From the NCBI RefSeq assembly GCF_963678975.1, contig NC_089281.1, forward strand, positions 6,349,277 to 6,413,276: DNA of 64,000 nt, written 5' to 3'. A program made the position numbers and the translations under genes. The notes beneath the pieces are model-generated. The model did not search any database. It saw only the letters and a list, made by a program, of their open reading frames with translations, and was not told the origin of the DNA. Source of the stretch: Dysidea avara. Its lineage: Eukaryota > Porifera > Demospongiae > Dictyoceratida > Dysideidae. Shown in pieces: positions 320 through 50,124 of the stretch; position 1 is the stretch's first letter; every line of letters begins with the position of its first letter.

Positions 320-2005
320 GTGCTGCTTAGAATTCGTGGTGCTGGAATAACTCTGAACAGAGCCAAGTGTGAATTTGGGAAACATGAAATTACCTTCCTT
401 GGTCACATTATCAACCAATCTGGTATCTTTGCTGATCCTGAGAAGCTTTCTGCCATTAAAGAGATGCCTCCCCCTACTAATATTACCGAACTACGTAGGT
501 TCATGGGGGTAATCAACCAGCTTGGAAAGTTTTCTCCAAACACAGCCGAACTCTCTGCTCCATTACGTACACTGCTCAGCACCAATCAAGCTTGGTTTTG
601 GGGTCCAGATCAAGATAGAACCTTTAATCAATTGAAAACAGAACTCACAACACCTCACATATTGACCATGTATGACCCTAAAGCACAAACTAAAATATCC
701 GCAGATGCTTCATCTTTTGGTCTTGGTGCAGTACTCCTTCAGGCTAAGGGCTCATCCTGGCATCCAGTTGCATACGCTTCCCGTTCTATGACCAGCACTG
801 AACGTAGATACGCCCAAATAGAAAAAGAGGCGTTGGCTATCACCTGGGCTTGTGAGAAGTTTAGTAGCTACATTATTGGCAATCAGATCCTCTTAGAAAC
901 CGACCATAAACCCCTAGTACCACTGCTGACTTACAAGCACCTAGAGAATCTTCCTCCAAGAGTACTTCGATTTCGACTCCGTCTAATGAGGTTTGCTTAC
1001 AATGTTGTTCATGTTGCTGGTAAATACCTTCATACTGCTGATCTACTTTCCAGGGTACCACAACATACCTCTCCGGATGCCCAGAGTTTATCCCAGCAGG
1101 AGGATATTGAATATTTCATACAAAGTGTTACCTCCTATTTACCAGCTAGTGAGAAACGTTTACAAGTCTACCGTCAAGAGCAATCTGAGGATCCAGTCAC
1201 TAAAACAGTCATATCCTATTGTCAATCAGGGTGGCCTAAGCACTCTTCACTTCAAAAGGACCTCAAACCCTTTTGGCCATTTCGTGGTGAGTTGAGCCTA
1301 TACAATGGGTTGTTGCTGTATGGGAGTCGTATTGTTGTACCTGTCAAACTTCGTACTGAGACTCTAGAAAAAATCCACCAGGGCCATCAAGGGATAAACC
1401 GGTGCCTCCTTCGATCAGTGTCATCTGTATGGTGGCCTGGGGTGTCTAAAGCTATTGAAGCTTATGTAAAGAGCTGCCCCCACTGTCAGAAGACATACAT
1501 TCCTTCCCGAGAGCCACTGATCATTTTGCCACTACCACAAAGGCCTTGGGAGAGAGTAGCTGCAGATCTATTTGAACTGGATGGCACCCAACACCTCCTG
1601 GTAATTGACTACTACTCAAGATACCCAGAAGTCATTCAGCTACATAGCACTACTTCAACCACTATAGTGAATGCCCTCAGATCGATTTTTGGACGACATG
1701 GTATCCCGTCAACACTAGTAACTGACAATGGACCACAGTTTAACTGCAGTACCTTTAAACAGTTTTCCTCGCTATATGGCTTCCATCATGTTACAAGTAG
1801 CCCAAGATACCCACAAAGCAACGGGTTGGTGGAGAGAGCAGTGAGGACGGTTAAAGGGTTACTGAAAGGGTCTTCAGATCCGCACATGGCATTACTCAGC
1901 TATCGAGCCACCCCACTCCCATGGTGTTCTCTCAGCCCTGCAGAGTTATTGTTTGGACGGAAAATTGTCACAGACTTACCTCAACTTTCCCCTCTGCTGA
2001 CTTAA
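320..2005 (+). pseudogene. RT thumb, RNase H and integrase of the gypsy element
   Basis: This is a 561-codon open stretch. Residues 1-90 are the RT thumb/connection (LGHIINQSGI). RNase H covers about 122-245 with the expected acidic set D129, E168, D195 (TDHKPL) and D241. The integrase zinc finger uses H353, H356, C386 and C389 (SCPHCQK). The integrase core has D416, D469 (VTDNGPQF) and E505 (NGLVERA), a D,D-35-E spacing. The frame stops shortly after the core, and the C-terminal part continues in another frame. Catalytic residues remain intact here, so decay of the copy is fairly recent. Confidence 0.92.
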
Positions 2006-5732: not shown

Positions 5733-5827
5733 ATCGGGGGCGCGCCATGTTAAAGTCTGCACATAACGAGATTCAAAGAGAAGATCAGGCTGGCAGGAAA
5801 TTTGGTGGTTTTGACTCGGTGGTCAAA

Positions 5828-6766
5828 ATGGCAAATTTTGTTGTTCGAAAAAGATCTCCCCAAGAATTGACACAAGAAGATATAGACGCGTTGCTGAAAT
5901 GGACAACAGACGAGGGTATGGCCCCTTACGTACGCCCTAATGATATTAGCCATATGTACAGCGGTCCACCGTACTTGGATGTTAAGGTCTTCTTTGGGTT
6001 TCTTGACGGAAAGAGGATAGGACACGTTGCATTGATTACTTTGGGAAAAGACGGCGACGTCATGCAATATATCACAATGTTCATAGTGGAGAAACCACTA
6101 CGAGGGAAGGGATATGGATTGAAGATTTGGAAAGCTATGTGGGAGTGCAGAGACACTAGTGCTAATATTTGTTTAGATTCTATCACCACTATGATGTCTC
6201 AGTATGAGTCAATGGGTCTAAACATTATTGGGTGGGACAACAGAGAGTATATTATATCTCTTTCGGCAATTACAGAGAAGTATAAGATGACTGAGAGTAT
6301 TGGAAATGTCTCTGCTAAGCCACTAAGTGAAGTTGAGTTTGATAAATTTGATGAGTACAATGCAAAGGTATACGGTCTTCATCGAACAGTTTTCATCAAG
6401 CGATGGGCGACACTTCCTGAAAGCTTTACTTGGGTAGCAGTAAATGAGAATGATGATACTGTCGGATGTATCACCATAAGAGAGGGTGCAGATAAACAGG
6501 ATGCCATCGTTGGTCCTTGGTATTCAGACAACTTGGAGATTGCCAAGAAGTTGATTTACACAGCAGCCCAAACTATGAGTAGCCAGACATCATCAAAGAA
6601 CCTAAGAATGCTAATGTGTTCCCCAGCAGGCAAGTCAAATGCCATTCAAATGATTGAAAATGATTTTGGAGTAAAGCCTGGTTTTATTGCTGTTCGCATG
6701 TGCAGTAAGAAGCCAAAAGTTGATGTAAGCAAGGTCATTGCAATACATTCAAGTGGCTATAATTAA
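5828..6766 (+). CDS. Double-GNAT N-acetyltransferase, YitH/HolE-like, copy 1
   Basis: Single-exon 312-residue protein. An in-frame ATG exists 81 bp upstream, but the three sister genes all start at the MANFVV Met, so that start is preferred. The N-terminal GNAT fold covers about 10-130, with the acetyl-CoA pyrophosphate loop R92-G-K-G-Y-G97 after strand YITMFIVEKP. A second GNAT-like half covers about 175-300 (VYGLHRTVFIKRW, then IVGPWYSDNLEIAKKLI), the layout of Acetyltransf_18 proteins such as YitH and HolE. It would transfer an acetyl or acyl group from CoA to an unknown amine. No signal peptide or membrane segment is seen, so it is probably cytosolic. Residue 31 is Met where the sisters have Trp. 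Confidence 0.9.
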   Translation: MANFVVRKRSPQELTQEDIDALLKWTTDEGMAPYVRPNDISHMYSGPPYLDVKVFFGFLDGKRIGHVALITLGKDGDVMQYITMFIVEKPLRGKGYGLKIWKAMWECRDTSANICLDSITTMMSQYESMGLNIIGWDNREYIISLSAITEKYKMTESIGNVSAKPLSEVEFDKFDEYNAKVYGLHRTVFIKRWATLPESFTWVAVNENDDTVGCITIREGADKQDAIVGPWYSDNLEIAKKLIYTAAQTMSSQTSSKNLRMLMCSPAGKSNAIQMIENDFGVKPGFIAVRMCSKKPKVDVSKVIAIHSSGYN

Positions 6767-15085: not shown

Positions 15086-15895
15086 TTACTGAACAACAGT
15101 AAACTTTGTCTTCAGCCAGTAGATATCATGGTAATATCCTGTTATTAAAGTACTCAGTGAGGCAGGATAGTAGCGTGCTTCATATATTCCAGGATGGTTG
15201 GGAGCCTGTATAATTTAACTGTGTACTTGAAAATATACAGCTACACTGCTTACTTTCATTATTACTTCACCACTCAGCTGGGCTTGTTCATTATACATAT
15301 AAATGTTGTCAATACTCTTCTTGCCATGTTCTGTGTATACATCTGGTGAGACAGCCATATATATAACTACTAGCTAGTAGCTACTATAAAATTTGCACAT
15401 AACTATTAAATTATTGTTATATGTTTATATACACTACGTTTGCTTTCATCAAGTACAAGCTGTATTCATCACTTACTATAAGCTGTAATCTTACATACAT
15501 ATGTTCAGATTAACATACGTACATATCTAGCGAGGTGTCTAGAAATGAATTTGGGTTGCTGAATAATGTAACCATACCAAAACAGCTAAAAGGATGTGGC
15601 CTTTAATATATCTGAGTTAAAAAGTTATGAAATCAAACATGGTAGCCTATAGAAATGTGAAATAATAGTCTATTAATTATAGTTCTTTACAAGTGTTAGG
15701 ACCACACCCTCTGCACATAGACACCTCAAGTGTGCACTGAAGCACATCTTTACAATACATAACATGTACATATATGTACTACCCCTACTACAGTTTATGA
15801 TAGGTGGCTGACATGTTCTACTTACAGATGTAATCTTTCTTTGCAGCTCGTGGTACTTTCCATTTGATGATAACATCACTACCAACCTTCACTGA
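15086..15895 (-). CDS. C-terminal SKICH-like beta-sandwich exons of the CARD-CHORD gene
   Basis: Three exons (15895-15826, 15366-15254, 15205-15086) read VKVGSDVIIKWKVP, KKDYIFIYMAVSPDVY and APNHPGIYEARYYP, ending at a TAA in 15086-15088. The pattern of a DxI-x-IY turn and a PGxYEARYY strand resembles SKICH or related beta-sandwich domains. I am unsure of the exact family. Confidence 0.55.
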
Positions 15896-18800
15896 CTACA
15901 AATACAATTATGCATGCAGGTATATATGTATTATATGTTTGCATACTACATAACACATATTATGTTTACTAACTTCTGGTGACACAGTCAGTGACATAGT
16001 AGTGGGGTTAGGAGGTTTTGGGAGCAAGCAGTGAGTGATTGCAAATGACGTTGGAGTTTTAATAATCATCTATGGAAGTACAAAGTGGTTCACAAGTGGC
16101 ACATGGTAATATGCATAGCATCGTTTCATGATGACTTGTATATTTCATCTCTAAGCATCAAATTTATGCAAACAGATCTACCTAAACATTATAGCATGCT
16201 CTACATGGTGAATCTAGGTGAACAATTAAAGAACGCAGAAATAGAAGAATAATCTAGTAGCATGTATAGGAAAGCATTTGAGTATACTTACTCAACCCTA
16301 CAGAGATGTTCATGTCAATTATACCAGTCCAAGCCATTTGAAAACTGTGGTCCTACATTCAGATACTCTGGAATGCAGAAAAAACTATATAGAATGGAAC
16401 AGCACTGAAAATTCAAGGGTATACATGTAGCTATATATCAAACTTTAGATGTAGAGTAGCTAATTCAATTTCAGAATTATGACTTGCGCATATATACAGT
16501 TGTGGCAAACTGGTCACATGAAATGTGCCTACAGACAGATACAAGCATACAATAATTGTCTGTCTAACCTTAAGACCATATGCTATTTCTTCTTTTAAAT
16601 CTATTAAGGCATAAACTTTCATTTCAGTCATATCATTTCGTTTTGCATATTCTTTAATTTCTATTTCAGTCTCACCAGCTTGCTAGATAACATACACACA
16701 TGAGAAAATTAAGCTATAGTACAAAGGTGCCAACTGTAACCCACCACAGCTTTGTAGGCTTGCTTTTCCATCACCGATTCAATGTAGTAGATGTTACTAC
16801 TGTCTGATCCTTCTAAAACAGGATGGTAACACAACACTCCATCAGTAGGCTCCTACAGGTGAACATGCCAATTATACCATACATTATATGCTAAATCCCT
16901 ACAAAGTAGACAGCTGCATCACTTCTTTGAAGTGTGTTTGCATTATCTGCAAAACAGTAAGCATACAAGCCTCCTTTTTCCCAGTTTGACTCCCATGTCT
17001 TAACGGTATTGAGATGCAAGGGAGGATTACCCTAACACCAAGGGTTTAAAAGAATACGATCACCCAATATTGATTGTGTCTTACAAACTCAAATCTTATT
17101 GATGTTGTGTGATTTTTGTGATCAGTGAAAACAGCTTTTAGATGGAGTGGCTGTGGTAAGGAATGGTGAGCTCTCCAAAGTGATGGTCTGGGTGTACCTG
17201 TACAATACAGCTACAAATTTACTGTCAGTAAAGTAGGTTTATTTACTACCTGGTAATTCTGGTATTTTGATGTTTAGCCTCACAGCCAGGGTAACAGTCT
17301 TTGCTGATTCAATGTTAAAATTTGGAATGTCAAGGAAACGATAGTCATCATAAGACTCTACCCCAATCCAAGCATCGTCACATTTCACCCAACCACCTGT
17401 TCCATCATCTATTTTTAAATAGTAACATTATTGCATAGTGTGCATGATCAGTAAGTTAACTAACTGGAGATTTCTCTCATACTGGATGACTGCTCTTTTA
17501 TAGTAATATACACCTATAAGCCAAACTCTGACTGCTCTATTAGATTATAGATGCAATAAGTAAGTCCTTTTCAATTTGTTTCATATGTGATTCCTCATAG
17601 TTTTACACTACACGATTAGGATACTAGTATTCAATGCACAGCAATTTTTAAACAAGCAGTTGCAGCCATGTCACTGATATCGCTCACTTGTAGTACAATA
17701 GTATCCTTCAATATTTGTAATAGTCAGATTACCATCTCCAGTATTTGTGACTAGCATCACTGCTGTGAATGAATTATTCCACTTCTCTGTAATAAAGCAT
17801 GCATAATACATGTAAAATATAGGGGTATTCCTTACTATTCTGTGCTCGTACGCTAGAGTGAGCCCTGGTATTACCTTTCTGTTGTATTTGTAAGTAGCTG
17901 CTGACACAATATTATGCAGTAACTCATGGATGGAATTACAAAATTCATTTGTATATATATATTCCTTTAGAATCTTTCTAATGATATCACTTATTTATGA
18001 CCCATCAAAATTTCACTAAGGAGAAGCGCAGGGGTGGACCCAGGTTTGGTAAGGAAGGTGCACACCAAGGTAGTAGGTATATATGAAGCAGGAGGTCTGG
18101 GGGCTACATATATAAAGCAGGGAATCTGGAGGGCTGCACCCCCCAGAAGAGGTTTTATGCACAAATGTCTAAATCACACTGCTTTCTAAGTGATCAAGAA
18201 TTGTTATTGGGATAAGTGACCGTCATGAGTAGTTCAGTTAGTTGTATATGAGCCTAAAGAATGGCATACACAAAACCATGTGCTCTTCATTTGCAAAATA
18301 TTCTTATCAGGTTAAGTGTGTTCATGCATGGGATATATAGTGCTGCAGATGTATTCAACAACTATGGAGGATTCTCAATAGTCAATAGTGTGATGAATGC
18401 TCTATTAGAGTATCTTGATCTTGTATTATGTTGTTTATATTTTTGGGGAAGGGGGGGGGGGGGGGGGGACATGTCCCCTGTGCCCCACCTTGGATCTGCC
18501 ACTGATAAATAAGCCATAAAAGTACACTGACTTTCACAAACTTATAATGGAGCTAAACCATACATTTCTACTCTGCTCTTAACATCAATGAGCATCTAGT
18601 TGGTTGAAATGTCATTTTCTCAAGAAAAAAACATAAATTTCTCTTTGGCTGGTATCTAAGATATCAACTCAACATCAACATACTATAACAGTTTATACAA
18701 TACTGCACTGAATCAAAATCATGAGTTCACAACAAGAACATCAATTGCAAATTGAAAATAACTTGCTATGTGGTATATATACATTATACTTTTTGTGAAC

Positions 18801-21800
18801 ACAGTAAAGAAGAATACAAAGATACCTATCATCAGATTCCACTTTGTAATCAGTTTTTCTGTTTTTAGAGTAGTCACACCCCACATCAATCACAGGTCCC
18901 TACAGGCAGCCAAAGTTCAATGTATTCTGGCACCACTAACGTACATACCTCTGCAACATCTTCTGGTAAATCATATGCTATCTGTTTTATATTATATAGT
19001 ATAGATCTGCATACATCCAAAAGATGCTTACAATTTTCTGGCTAGAAATTGATAGTTCTTCAATCTTGTCCAAGGCTGGAACAGTTCCAGTCAAGTTGAG
19101 TATAGCTCTCTTTGTGGTAACTTGTGATGAGCTGGCTGGCTTGACAGATACTTCAATTACTACAAAATTCATAATGGCTAGCTATTTTTTTGTAGTGATT
19201 CAATTTGTAATATATATATATATACATCAATTATATTGGTACTAACCTACTACTGGTCCATCACTAACAAAAATACTGGCAGTAATACTCCATCCAGTGT
19301 CACCAGTCTTTTTCAAAACAACACTAGTACTCCTACCCTCCTAATATTTAGTTACACATGCAAATGTGTATTAGCACATGAAGAATTCCATACATTTTTA
19401 TATTCCTTCAGTTGCTCCAAGTTTAACATTTTCATCCCATTGTGTTTGTGCCGACTCTCACCACAAGCAATGTACACCTTGTTATCTTCAGACAACCCAA
19501 CCTAGTAAGTTATATAATTATAATTATATCTAATCCAAAACAGCCAAGCTGTAAAAAAAGTGTGCGGCCCTCAGAAAGGCTATGGTGAAAAAAGATGTGA
19601 AATCCAAGGTGGCGGCCAAGAAATGGCTGTGATGGTAGGTTAATGGTAAAAATTTTAATAATGACAATTCAGGTAAATTTTGTGAAGCGGCACAAAAATT
19701 CACCTGAATTGTCGTTATTAAAATTTTTACCATTAACCTACCATCACAGCCATTTCTTGGCCGCCACCTTGGATTTCACATCTTTTTTCACCATAGCCTT
19801 TCTGAGGGCCGCACACTTTTTTTACAGCTTGGCTGTTTTGGATTAGATTTCATTTCTTTTTGTATTTGTATACCCCAAAGCCGGCCTATGGCCAGCTTTG
19901 GGACTTTTTTAACCTATGTTTTTTTTCTTTACTACAGGAAGACGAAAAGATGAAGTAGATGTACTTTAAATATTTTATCAGTAAATGTACAAATTATATA
20001 TATAATACATATGTGATCGGATTTGCGAAAAGGGGTCTTCCACACACATCCAATTTGCCAACTTTGACAATTGATAACTTCAGATTGGAAAGAGCTATTG
20101 CCTTGAAATTTGGACTGTGGTGATTTCTTTGCAGCTGAACTCTCTACACGATAGTTTCTTTGTAGCTGAACTCTCTACAAGGTAATTTCTTCTAGCTAAA
20201 CTCTCTACAGGGAGATTTTTTGTAGCTGAACTATCTACAAGGTAACTTCTTCTAGCTGATCTCTCTACAGGGTGATTTTTTTGTAGCTGAATTCTTTACA
20301 GGTGATTTGTTTGCAGCTGAGCTCTTTACAGAATGGTTTCTTTGTAGCTGAACTCTCTACAAAGTAACTTCTTCTAACTGATCTTTCTACAGGGTGATTT
20401 GTTTGTAGCTGAACTATCTACAAAGTAACTTCTTCTAGCTGATCTCTCTACAGGGAGATTTGTTTGTAGCTGAACTCTCTACAGGGCAATTTGTTTCTGG
20501 CAGAATTTTCTACAGGGTGATTTCTTTGCAGCTGAACTCTTTACATGATGGTTTCTTTGTAGCTGAACACTCTACAAGGTAATTTCTTCTAACTGATCTC
20601 TCTACAGGGTGATTTTTTGTAGCTGAACTATCTACAAGGTAACTTCTTCTAGCTGATCTCTCTACAGGATGATTTGTTCGTAGCTGAATTCTGTACAGGT
20701 GATTTCTTTGCAGCTGAGCTCTTTACAGAATGGTTTCTTTGTAGCTGAACTCTCTACAAGGTAACTTTTCTAGCTGATGTCTCTACAAGGTAGCTAGTTT
20801 GTAGCTGAACTCTCTACATGGTGGTTTCTTTGTAACAGAACTTTCTACAAGGTGACTTCTTCTAGCTGATCTTTCAATAGGGTGATTTGTTTGTAGCTTC
20901 ACTCTCTACAAGGTAACTTCTTTTAGCTGATCTCTCTACAGGGAGATTTGTTTGTAACTGAACTTTCTAAATGATGGTTTCTTTGTAGCTGAACTCTCTA
21001 CAAGTTAACTTCTTCTAGCTGATCTCTCTGCAGGGTGATTTGTTTGTAGCTGAATTCTGTACAGGTGATTTGTTTGCAGCTGAGCTCTCTACAGAATGGT
21101 TTCTTTGTAGCTGAACTCTCTACAAGGTAACTTCTTCTAACTGATCTTTCTACGGGGCAATTTGTTTCTGGCAGAATTCTCTACATGGTGTTTTCTTTGT
21201 AGCTGAACTCTCTACAAGGTAACTTCTTCTAGCTGATCTCTCTGCAGGGTGATTTGTTCGTAGCTGAACGATCTACAAGGTAACTTCTTCTAGCTGATCT
21301 CTCTACAGGGAGATTTGTTTGTAGCTGAACTCTCTACAGGTGATTTGTTTGAAGCTGAACTCTCTACAAGGTAACTTCTTCTAGCTAATCTCTCTACAGG
21401 GTGATTTGTTCGTAGCTGAACTCTCTACAAGTTAACTTCTTCTAGCTGATCTCTCTACATGGTGATTTGTTTGTAGCGGAACTATCTACAAGGTAACTTC
21501 TTCTAACTGATCTTTCTACAGGGCAATTTGTTCGTGGCAGAATTTTATACAGGGTGATTTCTTTGCAGCTGAACTCTCTACATGGTGGTTTCTTTGTTGC
21601 TGAACTCTCTACAAGGTAACTTCTTCTAGCTGATCTCTCTACAGGGTGATTTGTTTGTAGCTGAACGATCTACAGGGTGATTTTTTTGTAGCTGACCTCT
21701 CTTCAGGGTGATTTGTTTCTAGCTGATCTCTCTACAGGGTGATTTTTTGTAGCTGACCTCTCTTCAGGGTGATTTGTTTCTAGCTGATTGCTCTACAGGT

Positions 21801-24800
21801 TGATTTGTTTGTAGATGAACTCTCTACAGGGTAATTTGCTTGTAGCTGAACTCCTTACTTTGTGTCTAGTTTGTAGCTGATCTCTCTACAGGGTGATTTG
21901 TTTGTAGCTGAACTCCTTACATTGTGTGTAGTTTCTAGCTGATCTCTCTACAGGGTGATTTGTTTGTAGCTGATCTCTCTACAAGTTGATTTGTGTGTAT
22001 ATAGCTGATCTCTCTGCAGGTTGATTTGTTTGTAGCCGATCTCTCTACAGGTAATCTGTTTGTAGCTGAACTCTCTATAAGGTGATTTGTTTGTAGCTGA
22101 TCTCTCTGCAGGTTGATTTGTTTTAGCTGAACTCTCTACAGGGTGATTGCTTGTAGCTGAACTCCTTACATTGTGTCTAGTTTCTAGCTGATGTCTCTAC
22201 AGGGTGATTTTTTGTAGCTGAACTCTCTTCAGGGTGATTTGTTTCTAGCTGATCTCTCTACAGGTAGATTTGTATTGATTTGTTCATTGCTGATCGCTCT
22301 AAAGGTAATTGATTTGTTGCAGTTGAACACCCTGCAAAGTGTTTTGTTTGTAGCTGATCACTCTAAAGGGTAATTTGTTTGTAGCTGAACTCTCTCCACA
22401 GTGACTTGTGTGTAGCAGAATTCTGTGTAACTGAATTCTCTAGAGAGTGACTTAATTGTAGCTGAATTCTCTTAACAGTGCATGACTTGTTTATAGCTGA
22501 ACTTTCTTCAGTGTGACTTGTAATGTTCTGAATCTCTATAGTGGTATATTTGCTTAACTCTCCACATGGTGACTGTCTTCTTGCTGAACTGTCTATAAGA
22601 TTAACTGTTTGCAGCTGAACTCCCTACAGAATAACTTGTGATGTAATAAAATTCTATAATGGAGTAAATAAATTAGCTGAATGCTCTATTAGGATGACTG
22701 TTCTATTAGAGTATCTCGATCTCGCATTTGCTACACGGAGTTGGCTTTCGAATCATAACTCAGTGGTTTGTAATCCGATTCTTCTGTACTACTGCAAGGA
22801 CTTTCTATGAAGATTATTCCAGCTATACACCGATTTTCAGCTCATTGCTCTAAGCGGTTTGCCTAGTAGGCGTGAAAACTAATACTTTTTTATTCATAAA
22901 AATCGATCGCGTAATTGTGACACAGGTTGGGTTTTGTGTCATATCTCCGTGGTCTTTATCTCGATTCCTTTCAAACTACCAAAAGGCACTCCTACGATGG
23001 TTACTCCATCTACATAGCAATTTTCAACTCATTCCATGAAGCGGTTTACCCTGTAGGCGTGACAACAAATCGATCTTGTTTTACGCGAATAATCGGTCAT
23101 AACTCCTGAACCATTCATCGGATTTGTACCAAAGTTGATGCTAGGATTCGCCTTTGGACTCCCTTTCTGTGTGCCAAATTTCAAGGCGATCGGAGTACGC
23201 GTTTGCTTGTTATAGCAATTTTTGCAAGTGTGCGAAAAGACGAAGAAGAAGAAAAAAAAAAACGAAGAAAAAAAAACGAAACTTTGGCAGCTCGTATCTC
23301 GGAAATGGCTGGAGCGATTTCCTTCAAATTTGGAATGTAGACTCCCTTGGCTGGCGGGCAACTGTGTAGCAAATTTGGTTCCAATCAGATAAGTGATCAC
23401 CGAGATACAAAGGTGTGAAAATGACGTTTTCGTTCTTCCTGTCAATATACTCACGGTGTGGCGCGCCGGCTTCTTGGGCCGCACGACACACTACCGTGTG
23501 TCTTGATATACACAAGAATTTTAATTTCAATTAGGGATGATCTCTATTCAAACTTAAAATTCCTTATACTTGTTTGTTTACTTTTTTGTAACATTATTAT
23601 GCCTGGTGAATCCACATATATGTATTAGCATGGAAAGGATGGTGCCAAATGTAGGCTCATTGTTTTTGCCTGCCCCAAAATCAATTACTGAAATAGTGAA
23701 GTGGCCAATACGCTTCATTATTAGCTATGTCCAACCTGTTATGCAGCATGAAAAATACTAGGAGAAGAACCTCTGCAGTCAATCAGTCACAATGGAAAAT
23801 TTGGACGATTCCCGTCAAATGTAAGGAAACCATCACGTGGTGCTACTGCGAATCGACACCTTGTGCTGTCAACAAAGATAAATGGGACACAAAGGAGGAC
23901 ACAGGTAAATCTATGAAGCACGCATTGTACATATTGTGGTATGCCAAAAGGCGCCAGTTGGGATAAATTGACATTGAACAGTGAAAAAATCTAGCCAGTA
24001 GCCTTATGTTATTGGGATATGCTTGTCTGAAGGTATCAGTCAATCAGTCAGGCAGGAAATTCCACTAAATAAAAGAAATAAAATTTTTGTAACAACTTTA
24101 TGGAAGTGTTTACTGTTTCAGGTTGTACTGAAGGCATACACTGTAGTTGGTCAGAGAAGCCCAAACCTTCATGACCACTAATATACAGTACTATCGTACT
24201 GTATATACTTAAGTCTATATCATCATGTGTGTGTATACCTCAGCCCACTTGCATCCTATGGAAACAAAGTCTTTCACATCAACCTCCAGCCAAACTTGAT
24301 GAGCTTTCTTTATCTGTGACATATGATAGAGTCTGTAATTAATATTTTGCAATATATATATATATATTACAGTAAAAATACATATAGTATTTACAGGGTA
24401 CACCGCAATTTTTTTATAAATTAGATTTTTTTTAAACCTACAAGTGGTTTGTTTACCTTTAATGTAATAAAAGTTTCTAATATATGTAAACGGCTTAATT
24501 GTTTAAATGACAAGTGAGTTGAACTAGAGATGGTAATCCATGCATTGCTTAATACTTGTTGGTAACTGATATTCACATGCAGGATCTTATCTACTGTCAA
24601 GGGCTAGTGACAGTAGATAATTATAATTGATGCACAAGTATATGCAGCAGCATATCTAGGGGTAAACCCTACCAACGGTCTTAGCAATTTAGAGGCTTTT
24701 GTATGCACAACCAAATACTCTAATAGAGCAGTCACTGCATTAGGACCTGTATGTACATTATTTTGCAAAATACTGACTATAGGCACTTCTATAGTTCTTG

Positions 24801-27020
24801 CCCAAATGTGACACTCCACTTTGGGTAAGATTTCAGGAATTAATGCAAGAATCAAAACTGAAATTACACTTTATCAATGAGAGTTGGGTTGACGTAGCCT
24901 TACTTTGCCTTTGTAAAATATTGTGCATAAAATCTATAAGGGACATGCTTTTGCCAACCTTATGATAAACCTATACCAAACTACTTACTGTATTCATGAC
25001 AAATGTATTGTATGCAGCATAGGGGTAATCCTCATGATGTTCACTGTAGTGTTTGCCTTTAGTACAGCCTGAAATGAGCTTGACAGCATTGTAATTGTCA
25101 CTTCTTTGGTTGCAGCAGTTATAACTGTTATTATATCACCATTAACTACACATATGTACTGTATATATATATACAATCTTACACATAATTCCTGTCTGCA
25201 GGAGAAGGATGAAACTTACAAAGACCTTCAGCATTCTCTGACTCCTTGTATTCTTCCTGACACTGGACACAGGTCAGGATTGGTTCTGGAACACCATTAA
25301 TTGCTGTAATAATAAAATGCACTATTATAACACACTTAAAGATCCCATGGCCAACTGCAAGAGTTGTGGTTACTCTTCATTTTAACAGTGAGTATGGTTT
25401 ATCAGTGGCGGATCTAGATGGGTTTCTGGGGTTTCGACAGAAACCCCCTTTTAAATTTAGTTCAGTGGTAGTATAAATACATAAACATTGTTGCACTGAC
25501 AATTTGTCATAGCAAACAACTATATACCACTGTATTTCAGTAGCATGCATGCAGTTGCACTTAACTAACACCATTTATAGCTTTAAACCCTCAGTAACAC
25601 TTCACTTTTCATCTCCCACTGCATTAAAAACGATCGAGATACTCTAATAGAGCAGTCATGTAACTACTCTAATAGAGCAATCAAAGCTACAGCTTGTAGT
25701 CACCATATTTGCCCTATATTTAGCTATAGTATTTATAATTTAAAGCATTGGATTTATTGTAATTGGTAACTAAAAATAGCCTAAATCCGATCTCAGAGTT
25801 TCTAAAATCTTAAAATTTTTCAGAGAAATGTCATCAGATGTCTTATTCAGCTATACCAACTTTCAGAAACCCCCTTTTAAAAATCCTAGATCCGCCACTG
25901 TTTATACAGTAACATAGTGTAGTACACCACAAAAGCTGTACTATGTCAGGTGTTGCCACTCATGATCAAAGTACCACCTGAACTTTAGATAGTTACAAAC
26001 AAGTGACTACATATATATATATAAATATAATATGACCACATTACATAAAAAAGGAACCTTACGATAAATCTGCTTCAAGCAAAAACCCTGAAATTATCTC
26101 CTGCCTGACCACAGCAACTGTTTACGTGATCATGCATGTCATTCATTGCTGTGGTCAGTTGGTAGCTGCAGGTCACTGGGTAGCAGCTATATGTACATAC
26201 CTGTGCACAGTTTCTGAGATATCAGGTAGGCTCATAGGTATGAACATTTAAGATTAAAGCCATATAGTTAGCTAATATCAGATTTGCAGCCACAGAGTGC
26301 TATATATTGTTAAGGTTTTGAAGCCTTTGGCAGTAAATGATAGGTGTTAAATATTAAAACTGCACTATCAATTTTCACTGCCACTTTAATAATAAAATTC
26401 TGAACCAGCTGAGTTGAGCGACATGCTTTCCCTGACAGCTTTTAGGCCCAATCTGATGGATTACTGATTTTATACTGAGCTGCTATATAGGCTTTCCATA
26501 TTGCATGATCGACATTAAAAGCAATTTTCTCAAACCTGCCAACTCCTTTTCAGCTATATACTGTATGCGTGGTCTTGTACATGCATGGAGCTGACCATAA
26601 TAATTATGTAGTCTCACTATTTAACAGCTCACGTGATGTTCCATCTCCTGTTTCACTTGTCATTTCAGCAATGATATCCGCTGCTAGTTGTGTGCCAGCG
26701 AGGTGTTGTGAGGACTGCATGATGCGGAGCAGTATCCAAAAAGGATCAGTGATGTCTGCAAACAAGGCCTTACGAATAGGCATCAAGAGAGCACGAACTT
26801 TTAGCCAGGACGTCGCCTGAGCCATAATTTCTTCTTCGTCTTCAAAGCTGATCACACCTTTAGTCACGAGGTATGGTAGTATTTGTTCTACCGGCAATAT
26901 TTCACACAGTTTAGCATAGTAACGTTGAAATATTTCTTGATTACTTCCTCCCGGTTGCTCACGCAGTTTTGAGTTAGACGAGTTGAGGCTTTTCTGGTCA
27001 GATTCATTCATTTTGATCAT
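15086..27020 (-). CDS. CARD-CHORD multidomain protein, 20-exon host gene (by-eye model)
   Basis: Exons on the minus strand in transcript order: 27020-26633, 25303-25183, 25124-24989, 24313-24239, 19501-19394, 19340-19247, 19159-19032, 18981-18949, 18899-18826, 17897-17836, 17786-17688, 17408-17250, 17197-17085, 17031-16903, 16852-16745, 16682-16569, 16352-16302, 15895-15826, 15366-15254, 15205-15086. Each internal junction is AG/GT and every phase agrees; the total is 2,295 nt, 764 aa and a stop. Domains: CARD about 28-117, CHORD-like zinc module 141-195, unrecognised region about 200-660 rich in beta-strand-like segments, SKICH-like sandwich about 665-764. CARDs recruit partners in death and innate immune signalling; CHORD proteins act with HSP90. 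The function of the fusion is inferred only. The weakest links are the CARD-to-CHORD junction and exon 10 (alternative acceptor 3 bp away). Confidence 0.72.
18029..18504. mobile_element. MITE, CAGTGGCGGATCTAGG family, intronic
   Basis: The ends are CAGGGGTGGACCCAGG (left) and CCTTGGATCTGCCACTG (right). The interior has a 19-20-base G run (about 18450-18470) and one dispersed palindrome at 18395-18420. It lies in the intron between exons 9 and 10 of the CARD-CHORD gene. Confidence 0.7.
19528..19848. repeat. 321-bp near-perfect palindrome, copy A
   Basis: The arms of about 157 bp are reverse complements around a 6-base centre (AAGCGG at 19685-19690). The ends are ATCTAATCC and GGATTAGAT. The mirrored 67-codon frames at 19530-19733 (minus) and 19643-19846 (plus) are products of the palindrome. 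Confidence 0.92.
20120..22670 (+). repeat. Minisatellite array, alternating units of about 30 bp
   Basis: Two half-units of about 30 bp alternate: GGTGATTTGTTTGTAGCTGA followed by ACTCTCTACA, and GGTAACTTCTTCTAGCTGAT followed by CTCTCTACA. Roughly 80 half-units occur. Order is regular in the first two thirds and decays toward 22.3 kb, where the GTAACTTCTTC unit is lost. The same units recur in reverse orientation at 43335-43880. Confidence 0.93.
23485..23502. other. Terminal hairpin of copy A
   Basis: GACACAC-TACC-GTGTGTC forms a perfect 7-bp stem with a 4-base loop, 5 bases before the element end. The copy B equivalent is at 39381-39398. Position near the 3' end suggests a rolling-circle-type terminator. 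Confidence 0.7.
23525..24010 (+). repeat. Partial third copy of segmental unit A (no GNAT gene)
   Basis: TATGCCTGGTGAATCCACAT and the exon-like block ending at 23904 before GTAAAT match the units at 7.1-8.1 kb and 37.5-38.7 kb, with a large deletion between. It lies in the same intron as element A. The frame is broken relative to 38516-38711. Confidence 0.65.
24989..25303 (-). CDS. CHORD-like zinc-binding exons (two exons)
   Basis: The exons 25303-25183 and 25124-24989 join in phase to give C141-x2-C144, C158-x2-H161-P, C173-C174, C190 and H195 in the 764-aa model. ENAEGLCKFHP, YNCC and GCTKGKH match the CHORD signature in order and spacing of ligands, except that the first pair is C-x2-C and the Trp before CC is Tyr. 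CHORDs in RAR1 and CHORDC1 bind zinc and HSP90. The exon ends are AG at 25304-25305 and GTAAGT at 24988-24983. Confidence 0.65.
25403..25900. mobile_element. MITE, CAGTGGCGGATCTAGG family, 498 bp
   Basis: The ends are CAGTGGCGGATCTAGA and the inverted TCCTAGATCCGCCACTG, followed inside by GAAACCCCCTTTTAAA on both sides. It contains two dispersed palindromes (25632-25658, 25665-25683). It lies in the intron between the CARD and CHORD exons. Confidence 0.85.
26633..27020 (-). CDS. CARD exon (first coding exon of the CARD-CHORD gene)
   Basis: Reading from Met at 27020 (or Met at 27011), the exon encodes a six-helix death-fold pattern: FQRYYAKLCEILPVEQILPY, LVTKGVISFEDEEEIM, then LKVRALLMPIRKALF and FWILLRIMQSSQHLAGTQLA. 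The GVISFEDEEEI turn and the closing hydrophobic LA pattern match CARDs. A GTGAGC donor follows 26633; splicing there leaves one base, matching the two-base start of the next exon at 25303. If that donor is not used, the frame stops at 26604 and gives a 138-aa CARD-only protein. Confidence 0.75.
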
Positions 27021-36138: not shown

Positions 36139-36259
36139 CAGCACGAATTTGAGGTCACTGATGTCATAACAGGCGAGATAAAGAAAAGAAAGATCAGGCC
36201 GAAAATACGACCAAAATTGACGCCAAACATTAGCAGGAAGTTCGGTGGTTTTGGTCGAA

Positions 36260-37198
36260 ATGGCAAATTTTGTCGTTCAAAAAAGATCTCCCCAAGAATT
36301 GACACAAGAAGATATAGACGCTTTGGTGAAATGGACAACAGACGAGGGATGGGCACCTTACGTACGCCCTAATGATATCAGCCATATGTACAGTGGTCCA
36401 CCGTACTTGGATGCTAAGGTCTTCTTTGGGTTTCTTGATGGTAAGAGGATAGGACACGTTGCATTGTTTACTTTGGGAAAAAATGGCGACGTCATGCAAT
36501 ACATCACCATGTTCATAGTGGAGAAACCACTACGAGGGAAGGGATATGGATTGAAAATTTGGAAAGCTATGTGGGAGTGCAGAGACGCTAGTGTTAACAC
36601 TTGTTTAGATTCTGTCACCGATATGATGTCTCAGTATGAGTCAATGGGCCTAAACATTGTTGGGTGGGACAACAGAGAGTACATTATACCTCTTTCGGAA
36701 ATTGCAGAGAAATACAAAACGACTGAAAGTATTGGAAATGTTTCTGCTAAGCCACTAAGTGAAGTTGAGTTTGATAAATTTGATGAGTACAATGCAAAGG
36801 TATATGGTCTTCGTCGAACAGTTTTCATCAAGCGATGGGCGACACTTCCTGAAAGCTTTACTTGGGTAGCAGTAAATAATGATGATGATGTTGTCGGATG
36901 TATCACCATAAGAGAGGGTGCAGATAAACAGGATGCCATCGTTGGTCCTTGGTATTCAGACAACTTGGAGATTGCCAAGAAGTTGATTTATGCAGCAGCC
37001 CAAACTATGAGCAGCCAGACATCATCAAAGAACCTAAGAATGCTAATGTGTGCCCCAGCAGGCGAGTCAAATGCCATTCAAACGATCGAAAATGATTTTG
37101 GAGTGAAATGTGGTATTATTTTTGTTCGCATGTGCAGTAAGAAGCCAAAAGTTGATGTAAGCAAAGTCATTGCAATACATTCAGCGGGCTATAATTAA
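36260..37198 (+). CDS. Double-GNAT N-acetyltransferase, YitH/HolE-like, copy 2
   Basis: Intronless, 312 residues, about 90% identical to copy 1 by eye. The RGKGYG CoA loop at 92-97 and the C-terminal half (VYGLRRTVFIKRW, IVGPWYSDNLEIAKKLI) are intact. Trp occupies position 31, as in copies 3 and 4. The ATG at 36260 is preferred over the GTG at 36245 because the sister proteins share it. A CRE-like site lies upstream. Retained frame with many substitutions suggests selection on the protein. The substrate is unknown. Confidence 0.92.
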   Translation: MANFVVQKRSPQELTQEDIDALVKWTTDEGWAPYVRPNDISHMYSGPPYLDAKVFFGFLDGKRIGHVALFTLGKNGDVMQYITMFIVEKPLRGKGYGLKIWKAMWECRDASVNTCLDSVTDMMSQYESMGLNIVGWDNREYIIPLSEIAEKYKTTESIGNVSAKPLSEVEFDKFDEYNAKVYGLRRTVFIKRWATLPESFTWVAVNNDDDVVGCITIREGADKQDAIVGPWYSDNLEIAKKLIYAAAQTMSSQTSSKNLRMLMCAPAGESNAIQTIENDFGVKCGIIFVRMCSKKPKVDVSKVIAIHSAGYN

Positions 37199-48288: not shown

Positions 48289-49224
48289 TTAGCCATAGCC
48301 TGGTGAGTGTATTGCAATGACTTTGCTTATGTCAACTTTAGGCTTCTTACTGCACATGCGTGGAAAATTATGATCGCACTTGACTCCAAAATCACTTTCG
48401 ATCATTTGAATAGCATTTGACCCGCCTGTTGGGATACACATTCTTAGGTTCTTTGATGATGTCTGGCTGCTCATAGTTTGGGCTGCTGTGTAAATCAACT
48501 TCTTAGCAATTTCCAAGTTATCTGAATACAACGGACCAACGATAGCATCCTGTTTATCTACACCCTCTCTTATGGTGATACATCCAACAACATCATTCTC
48601 ATTTACTGCTACCCAAGTAAAGCTTTCAGGAAGTGCCACCCATTTCTTTAAGAAGACCGACCGACTAAGACCGTACACCTTTGCACTATATTCGGCATAT
48701 TTCTCAAACTTAATTTCACTTAGTGGCTTAGTGGAGACATTCTCAATGTTTTCGGTCACCTTGTACTTCTCTGCAATTGCCAACAGAGGTATAATATACT
48801 CTCTGTTGTCCCACTCAATATTTAGACCCAACGACCCATATTGAGAAATCAGACTAACAACAGAATCTAAACAAGTGTTAGCACTAGTGTCCCTGCATTC
48901 CCACATAGCATTCCAAATCTTCAATCCATATCCCTTTCCTCGAAGCGATTTCTCCACAATGAAAAATGTGATAAAATCCATCAAGTCAGTACTGCCGCCA
49001 TCTTTTCCGTACGTAAACAACACAACGTGTCCTATCCTCTTGCCGTCAAGAAATCCAAAGAAGACCTTAGCATCCAGGTACGGTGGGCCGCCGTACAGGT
49101 GTTTGATATCACTAGGGCGTGTGTAAGGATCCCATCCCTCATCCGTTGTCCATTGCACTAACGAGTCTAAGTCTTCTTGTGTCAATTCTTGCGGAGATTT
49201 TCTCTGGACAACAAAATTCGCCAT
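48289..49224 (-). CDS. Double-GNAT N-acetyltransferase, YitH/HolE-like, copy 3
   Basis: Intronless, 311 residues, more diverged from copies 1 and 2 than they are from each other. The CoA loop is kept (SLRGKGYGLKIW), as is the C-terminal half (VYGLSRSVFLKKW, IVGPLYSDNLEIAKKLI). The start at 49224 is the MANFVV Met shared with the sisters, although an in-frame ATG exists 9 bp upstream. A GGSTDL insertion lies before the CoA loop strand, and small deletions elsewhere. The downstream flank is not homologous to units A1/A2, so this copy arose separately or earlier. Confidence 0.92.
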   Translation of the reverse strand: MANFVVQRKSPQELTQEDLDSLVQWTTDEGWDPYTRPSDIKHLYGGPPYLDAKVFFGFLDGKRIGHVVLFTYGKDGGSTDLMDFITFFIVEKSLRGKGYGLKIWNAMWECRDTSANTCLDSVVSLISQYGSLGLNIEWDNREYIIPLLAIAEKYKVTENIENVSTKPLSEIKFEKYAEYSAKVYGLSRSVFLKKWVALPESFTWVAVNENDVVGCITIREGVDKQDAIVGPLYSDNLEIAKKLIYTAAQTMSSQTSSKNLRMCIPTGGSNAIQMIESDFGVKCDHNFPRMCSKKPKVDISKVIAIHSPGYG

Positions 49225-50124
49225 GTCGATCAATCAGTAGCTAGCACGGAATTCGCTGCGAATTTTCAATCGTCTGCTTGACACTTTGAAGTAACTCGCT
49301 CCACAATCGGTTTTTATTTTATTTTTATGTACTTGACCGCAGGACTTGCATTACGTATCCAGGTCAAAAGTTCAAAGGACTGAGGTCAATGAACTGATAG
49401 AGTTCATTTCACCATAATATGCATGGTTTAGAGTTCATGGGGCGGCAGTGGCTAAAAAAAACTATTTTTTACAACTACCCCAAATCTGAGATGGGGGGGA
49501 TATCTATGATATGAACATAGAGTCGCGCGGCCAAGAAACTACAAAGCGCACGCCCAATTAAAAGACGCGCGGCCACTACTGTGAGTTAGGGCCGGTTTCG
49601 CAATATTAGTCCTAGATTACGCAACATCTCTCAATAGATTTTTTTTCACCATTTGTCATCAGTTTTTTTGTATTGCGTTACGTGATAAAAAAATCTTTAG
49701 GAGTCGTCATCATAGTTTTCTTGCGACCTCGCTTAAAATAAAAAAAAACTAACCATCGCAAAATAAAAAATAAGCGTATTTCACTTTATTTCTCTACCTT
49801 ATGTTACATGAGAGATAACCATCATTAACAATTGTGATGAAAAGATGTACAACAAAACAAATAGGCATGTGAAACCTCGGACAGCATGCGAACACAAAAA
49901 GTAGAGGACTACACTGTGGGCGTGGCAAGGCAAAAACAACAACAAAAAAGACTAATTACTGTAATTACAAAAATAAAACTGTCTAATTTGTGCACCACTC
50001 TGTACAGTTTCGTGCTAGAAAAATTCTCTGAGAGGCAGAGATACTGGCAGAGGCAGCAGCATCTAACCATTCCTTAATAATGTGCTTCGAAATCCTTATA
50101 TCAGCTTGAACAAAGTTTAACAAA

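Follow-up and report, generated by a model that had tools for sequence, protein, structure and literature searches.

The N-terminal signalling domains of NLR immune receptors seem to have been acquired by a family of CHORD genes in the host genome. In the window (the whole stretch of 64,000 nucleotides that was analysed), a minus-strand gene, here called W, appears to join a CARD exon to a CHORD module, with a single mRNA suggested by splice phase and by comparison with related genes. From sequence, one CHORD family seems to carry three different N-termini, since a CARD is present in W, a DEATH domain in its paralogs A and B, and a short first exon without a death fold in its paralogs D and E. 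Most simply read, this arrangement means that the 5' end of the family would have been replaced repeatedly, on two occasions by NLR-type exons, which points to N-terminal domain swapping outside NLR genes. According to PMC2935968, CHORD proteins serve plant NLRs, and what they contribute to NLR function in mammals is controversial. A CHORD protein that carries a signalling domain of the type used by the receptors themselves allows a direct test of the animal CHORD-NLR question, with the sister genes as DEATH and no-death-fold controls.

The gene model of W comprises 20 minus-strand exons between window positions 27011 and 15086, with AG acceptors and GT donors throughout and with all phases compatible. 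This agrees with the twenty joined blocks of the preliminary description, although the spliced reading frame was found to be 2,307 nt (768 amino acids plus stop), 12 nt longer than the 2,295 nt given there. Exon 1 (26633..27011) encodes the CARD, contributes 126 amino acids plus one base and ends in the phase-1 donor CATCAC/GTGAGC. It is separated by an intron of 1.33 kb from exon 2 (25183..25303), which has a phase-1 acceptor and encodes the first half of the CHORD (CxxC, C, H). The second half (CC, GCTKGKH) is encoded by exon 3 (24989..25124), and the two exons together exceed the Pfam cut-off; exon 3 is 136 nt long in all five family members, the ends in A and E being set by hand. A region without known domain begins with exon 4 (24239..24313), 75 nt long and kept in all five. 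Exons 5-9 (19501-19394, 19340-19247, 19159-19032, 18981-18949 and 18899-18826) and exons 11-16 (17786-17688, 17408-17250, 17197-17085, 17031-16903, 16852-16745 and 16682-16569) are supported by splice sites, phases and conservation in the paralogs. Exon 10 (17897-17836), which restores the phase, is 62 nt in W and 65 nt in D and E; it was placed because of its conservation in these two paralogs and was not identified in A and B in the spliced comparison of the loci. Exons 17-20 (16069-15974, 15895-15826, 15342-15254 and 15205-15086, the last with the stop) encode the C-terminal region. A start codon at 27011 is suggested by the CARD relatives on contig C9, which have a similar short leader before the CARD; ATGs also occur further upstream in the exon 1 frame.

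On comparative grounds W is a real gene and not a set of chance frames, because four paralogous loci repeat its exon chain and dN/dS values indicate purifying selection. The host genome (550.8 Mb, 108 contigs) was searched with the CHORD part and, separately, with the C-terminal part. Both queries led to the same five loci on contig C10, namely A (6.279-6.303 Mb, plus strand), B (6.320-6.341 Mb, plus strand), W (6.364-6.376 Mb, minus strand), D (6.454-6.476 Mb, minus strand) and E (10.625-10.639 Mb). The sole CHORD-part match outside C10 was on C8, with an E value of 1.05, and the last exon of W was matched at four other C10 loci. As judged from these alignments, the loci constitute a five-member family, defined by a CHORD domain followed by about 550 amino acids whose fold was not recognised. 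In spliced alignments the exon chain of D and E is complete through exon 18, with exons 19-20 read from small extra stretches; the chain of A and B is less complete and their later exons are modelled partly. Exon lengths across the paralogs are the same as in W or mostly differ by a few bases. Borders were set by hand for exon 10, for the beginning of exon 3 in A and E, and for the exon 2 donors of A, B and D (in D since the spliced aligner picked another).

Seven of the ten paralog pairs were used for dN/dS, those with A or B over 248-253 codons. Values for W were 0.21 against E (565 codons, 71% identity), 0.25 against D (564 codons), 0.27 against B (248 codons) and 0.30 against A (248 codons), and purifying selection was seen on the CARD part as well as on the CHORD part. 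A and B are a young pair (dS 0.08) and gave the highest ratio of the seven computed, 0.60 over 253 codons, perhaps as a result of relaxed selection after duplication.

Identification of the N-terminal exon as a CARD, as first described, was borne out by Pfam, with exon 1 scoring 28.5 bits against a cut-off of 23.9 for PF00619. The predicted structure is a six-helix death fold, for which the CARDs of APAF-1 were the best structural matches, with those of CED-4 and CARMA1 among the best. Foldseek with the CARD model gave no match at E ≤ 0.001. A PDB sequence search with the CARD profile returned weak BCL10 matches only (E 0.25 and 0.47), which leaves Pfam and the predicted fold as the basis of the CARD assignment. 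Among the matches listed, the closest relatives of the W CARD are ten exons on C9, with 44-56% identity, and nine of these have a same-strand NACHT exon 2.3-27.7 kb downstream, in five cases within 12 kb. The NACHT query exon was verified by Pfam (55.3 bits against 26.7), and the 141 NACHT places used were made up of all 105 from one listing and 36 from a second (the 30 best and six picked by hand). Within 30 kb of the best 20 of 149 listed CARD matches (W excluded), a NACHT lies downstream in 12, upstream in three and on the opposite strand in one.

By this kinship the W CARD is of NLR type, a relationship newly recognised here, and the immune link is stronger because its closest relatives are CARDs that precede NACHT exons. 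The one C9 relative of the ten with no listed NACHT within 30 kb, C9:12773092-12773415 (+), could be a further case of a CARD grafted onto some other gene. The host genome is also rich in death-fold and NACHT frames, with 331 CARD, 653 DEATH and 703 NACHT first-look candidates; this abundance represents an NLR-type gene expansion.

All seven C9 CARD exons that were read end in a phase-1 donor, and the acceptor of W exon 2 has the same phase. The donor is GTGAGT in six of them and GTAAAA in L058, as chosen by hand among the listed GTs, with slightly different positions in the alignments. In 20 of the 21 pairs formed by these seven exons, DNA homology ends within 16 bases of the donor on its intron side; the exception is L054-L055, where it continues for 57 bases past the donor and in further patches. 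These data bear on whether the two domains are encoded together. A CARD transcript and a separate downstream CHORD gene, adjoining by chance or local rearrangement, would be compatible with the length of the first intron, with a CARD frame that could run to a stop at 26604, and with the ATG that A and B contain in exon 2 just before the CHORD. However, the relatives have the phase-1 donor in common and not the stop, and W exon 2 has an AG acceptor of matching phase with no in-frame ATG between it and the CHORD. Moreover, any one gene would have a CARD on its own strand no more than 1.33 kb away with a chance probability of about 0.0004, a figure that takes first-look counts and an even spread where the genome is not uniform. 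Two transcription units are consequently considered very unlikely. It is similarly unlikely that the CARD forms a gene of its own with its end at 26604, since the donor is common to all seven relatives and neither the stop nor the read-through is conserved. A joined CARD-CHORD gene is the reading adopted here.

The sister genes carry other N-termini. A and B each have a DEATH exon upstream of the CHORD, scoring 35.7 and 41.9 bits against a cut-off of 22.6. These exons are located on the same strand as the CHORD at distances of 3.5 and 5.1 kb and end in phase-1 donors (AG/GTTTGT), and exon 2 of both genes has an AG acceptor whose phase matches the DEATH donor. Strand, phase-1 donors and kinship suggest that DEATH and CHORD may be joined in these two genes. 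The chance of a DEATH within 5.1 kb is about 0.004, again with first-look counts and with an even spread assumed for a genome that is not uniform. Near the best 20 of 148 listed DEATH matches (A and B excluded), a NACHT is found downstream in 13 and upstream in two, the downstream count being 12 when the six hand-picked NACHT places are left aside. Of three NLRD relatives read, two (L066 and L067) carry a phase-1 donor in the corresponding position. D and E share a short first exon of 26 and 25 amino acids (MAELGEIKKILQDIRRNQLDIILRLE in D), helical-looking by eye, with a phase-0 donor followed by a phase-0 acceptor on exon 2. Over about 20 kb upstream of D and 17 kb upstream of E, tblastn with a single query for each domain found no CARD or DEATH exon. 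The first bases of exon 2 differ among the three groups (W; A and B; D and E).

The CHORD itself (PF04968) is over the cut-off of 24.6 bits in all five genes, with 35.8-40.7 bits in the comparison of the paralogs and 31.6 bits in a separate scan of W exons 2-3. In W it occupies residues 140-192, encoded by exons 2-3 and split by an intron, where a hit at residues 141-195 had been anticipated, and the ligand series C-C-C-H-CC-C-H first read in these exons is present. The eight zinc ligands are in order in all five paralogs and are predicted to bind zinc. A genome-wide CHORD search gave no match, but its control gave none either and the CHORD is intron-split here, so that this negative carries no weight. 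By sequence, the nearest solved structures are those of CHORDC1 (2yrt) and RAR1 (2xcm). Clear membership of PF04968 and these structure matches would suit a RAR1-like co-chaperone, in which NLRs would be recognised by the CARD and handed over by the CHORD, along with SGT1, to HSP90. RAR1 CHORDII has been shown to contact HSP90 and to serve NLRs, its His188 and Asp189 contact the HSP90-bound nucleotide, and His188 is invariant in CHORD sequences, as stated in PMC2935968. In contrast, no His is present in the loop between the ligand His and the CC in any of the five paralogs, so that a contact of the RAR1 His188/Asp189 kind was not found. This loop is 12 residues long in W, three fewer than the 15 of RAR1, and measures 15 residues in D and E and 16 in A and B, the paralog lengths depending partly on hand-set exon ends. 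The first ligand pair is CxxC in the family, whereas it is Cx4C in RAR1 (C159 and C164 in that text, PMC2935968).

The family is therefore both like and unlike the co-chaperones RAR1, CHORDC1 (Morgana) and melusin. It shares with them a CHORD recognised by Pfam and by PDB sequence match, but has one CHORD where they have a tandem pair (Pfam listed a single CHORD in the W model), and a death-fold or short first exon stands before the CHORD. No CS domain was found by Pfam at E ≤ 10 in exons 4-20 of four members, nor in W exons 1-9 and 11-20. Single CHORDs also occur in the Rex3/REXO1 nucleases (PMC12129344); W resembles these in having a single CHORD inside a larger protein, and differs in its death-fold N-terminus and in that no nuclease domain was found. 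An HSP90 role by the known nucleotide contact is unlikely, because the contact His is missing, the CHORD is single and no CS domain was found, and the RAR1-like co-chaperone is correspondingly regarded as quite unlikely. Of the immune role put forward in the preliminary description, the link to NLRs is thus strengthened by the kinship of the CARD, whereas the RAR1-like HSP90 route is not upheld.

Downstream of the CHORD, the long unrecognised region of the preliminary description was recovered in exons 4-20, about 550 amino acids. A profile of four sequences gave no PDB match at E ≤ 10 for this region, and no Pfam family was over the cut-off in four members; a known fold for it was dropped on this basis. 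The SKICH-like end that had been proposed was also abandoned, as no SKICH profile was listed for the C-terminus at E ≤ 10 in Pfam, where HMMER filters drop most matches above about 0.1. For the last 105 amino acids the best Pfam match was GH123_N (E 0.0046, 15.3 bits), under its cut-off of 22. Two peptide patterns gave 64 pattern matches in prokaryote contigs and 43 in viral contigs, with 0 confirmed relatives in either.

With regard to function, we give about an even chance to the W protein acting in NLR signalling as a CARD-based adaptor or decoy, in which the CARD enters assemblies of receptor or partner CARDs and the CHORD and C-terminus hold another partner. Such a protein would be cytosolic. 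Fold and kinship suggest that its CARD may join or cap the CARD assemblies of CARD-NLRs or of their partners, and the CHORD and C-terminal region would recruit or hold a partner by some means other than the known HSP90-nucleotide contact. No death-fold exon was found in two of the five paralogs, suggesting that the CHORD part has a role independent of one. Like the sponge NLRC and NLRD receptors (CARD- or DEATH-NACHT-LRR), W begins with an exon that resembles those preceding NACHT and has a phase-1 donor, but Pfam listed neither NACHT nor LRR in the gene model, and the CHORD and the region without known domain are present instead. In having a CARD without receptor parts, W is comparable to the CARD adaptors and decoys BCL10, ARC, ICEBERG and CARD9, none of which, to our knowledge, carries a CHORD. 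No paper on a CHORD together with a CARD, in sponges or more generally, or together with a death domain was found in a set of full texts that excludes most subscription papers.

CARDs serve caspases, APAF-1 and RIG-I-like proteins too, and for this reason an NLR partner is not certain. Regulation of caspases or of an apoptosome-like complex, in place of NLRs, by the CARD-CHORD protein would be in keeping with the APAF-1 and CED-4 CARDs as best structural matches; nevertheless, structural ranking among CARDs does not name a partner, and within the genome the CARD is related in sequence to those located ahead of NACHT exons. Such a role is judged unlikely, and the adaptor or decoy in NLR signalling is retained. 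A further proposal extends the NLR adaptor to the whole family and is offered tentatively, as a possibility that we would not favour at present. The CHORD family may be a repeat acceptor of NLR first exons by way of the common phase-1 junction, with one acquisition of a CARD and one of a DEATH, the latter preceding the A/B duplication. The products would be CHORD adaptors tipped with a CARD or a DEATH, each paired with a single NLR class, and would constitute an animal counterpart of plant RAR1 that is covalently fused to the receptor signalling domain.

Several other features were observed in and around W. A 31-bp unit is repeated in tandem about 75 times in the long intron that separates exon 4 from exon 5 (window 20119-22424), and a long inverted repeat, seen by eye just upstream of exon 5 (about 19535-19850), looks like a hairpin-forming mobile element. 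At 320-2005 (+), a retroelement frame encodes reverse-transcriptase RNase H and integrase domains. Single-frame ORFs resembling GNAT acetyltransferases (Acetyltransf_18) lie on both sides of W, at 5747-6766 (+), 36245-37198 (+) and 48289-49233 (-).
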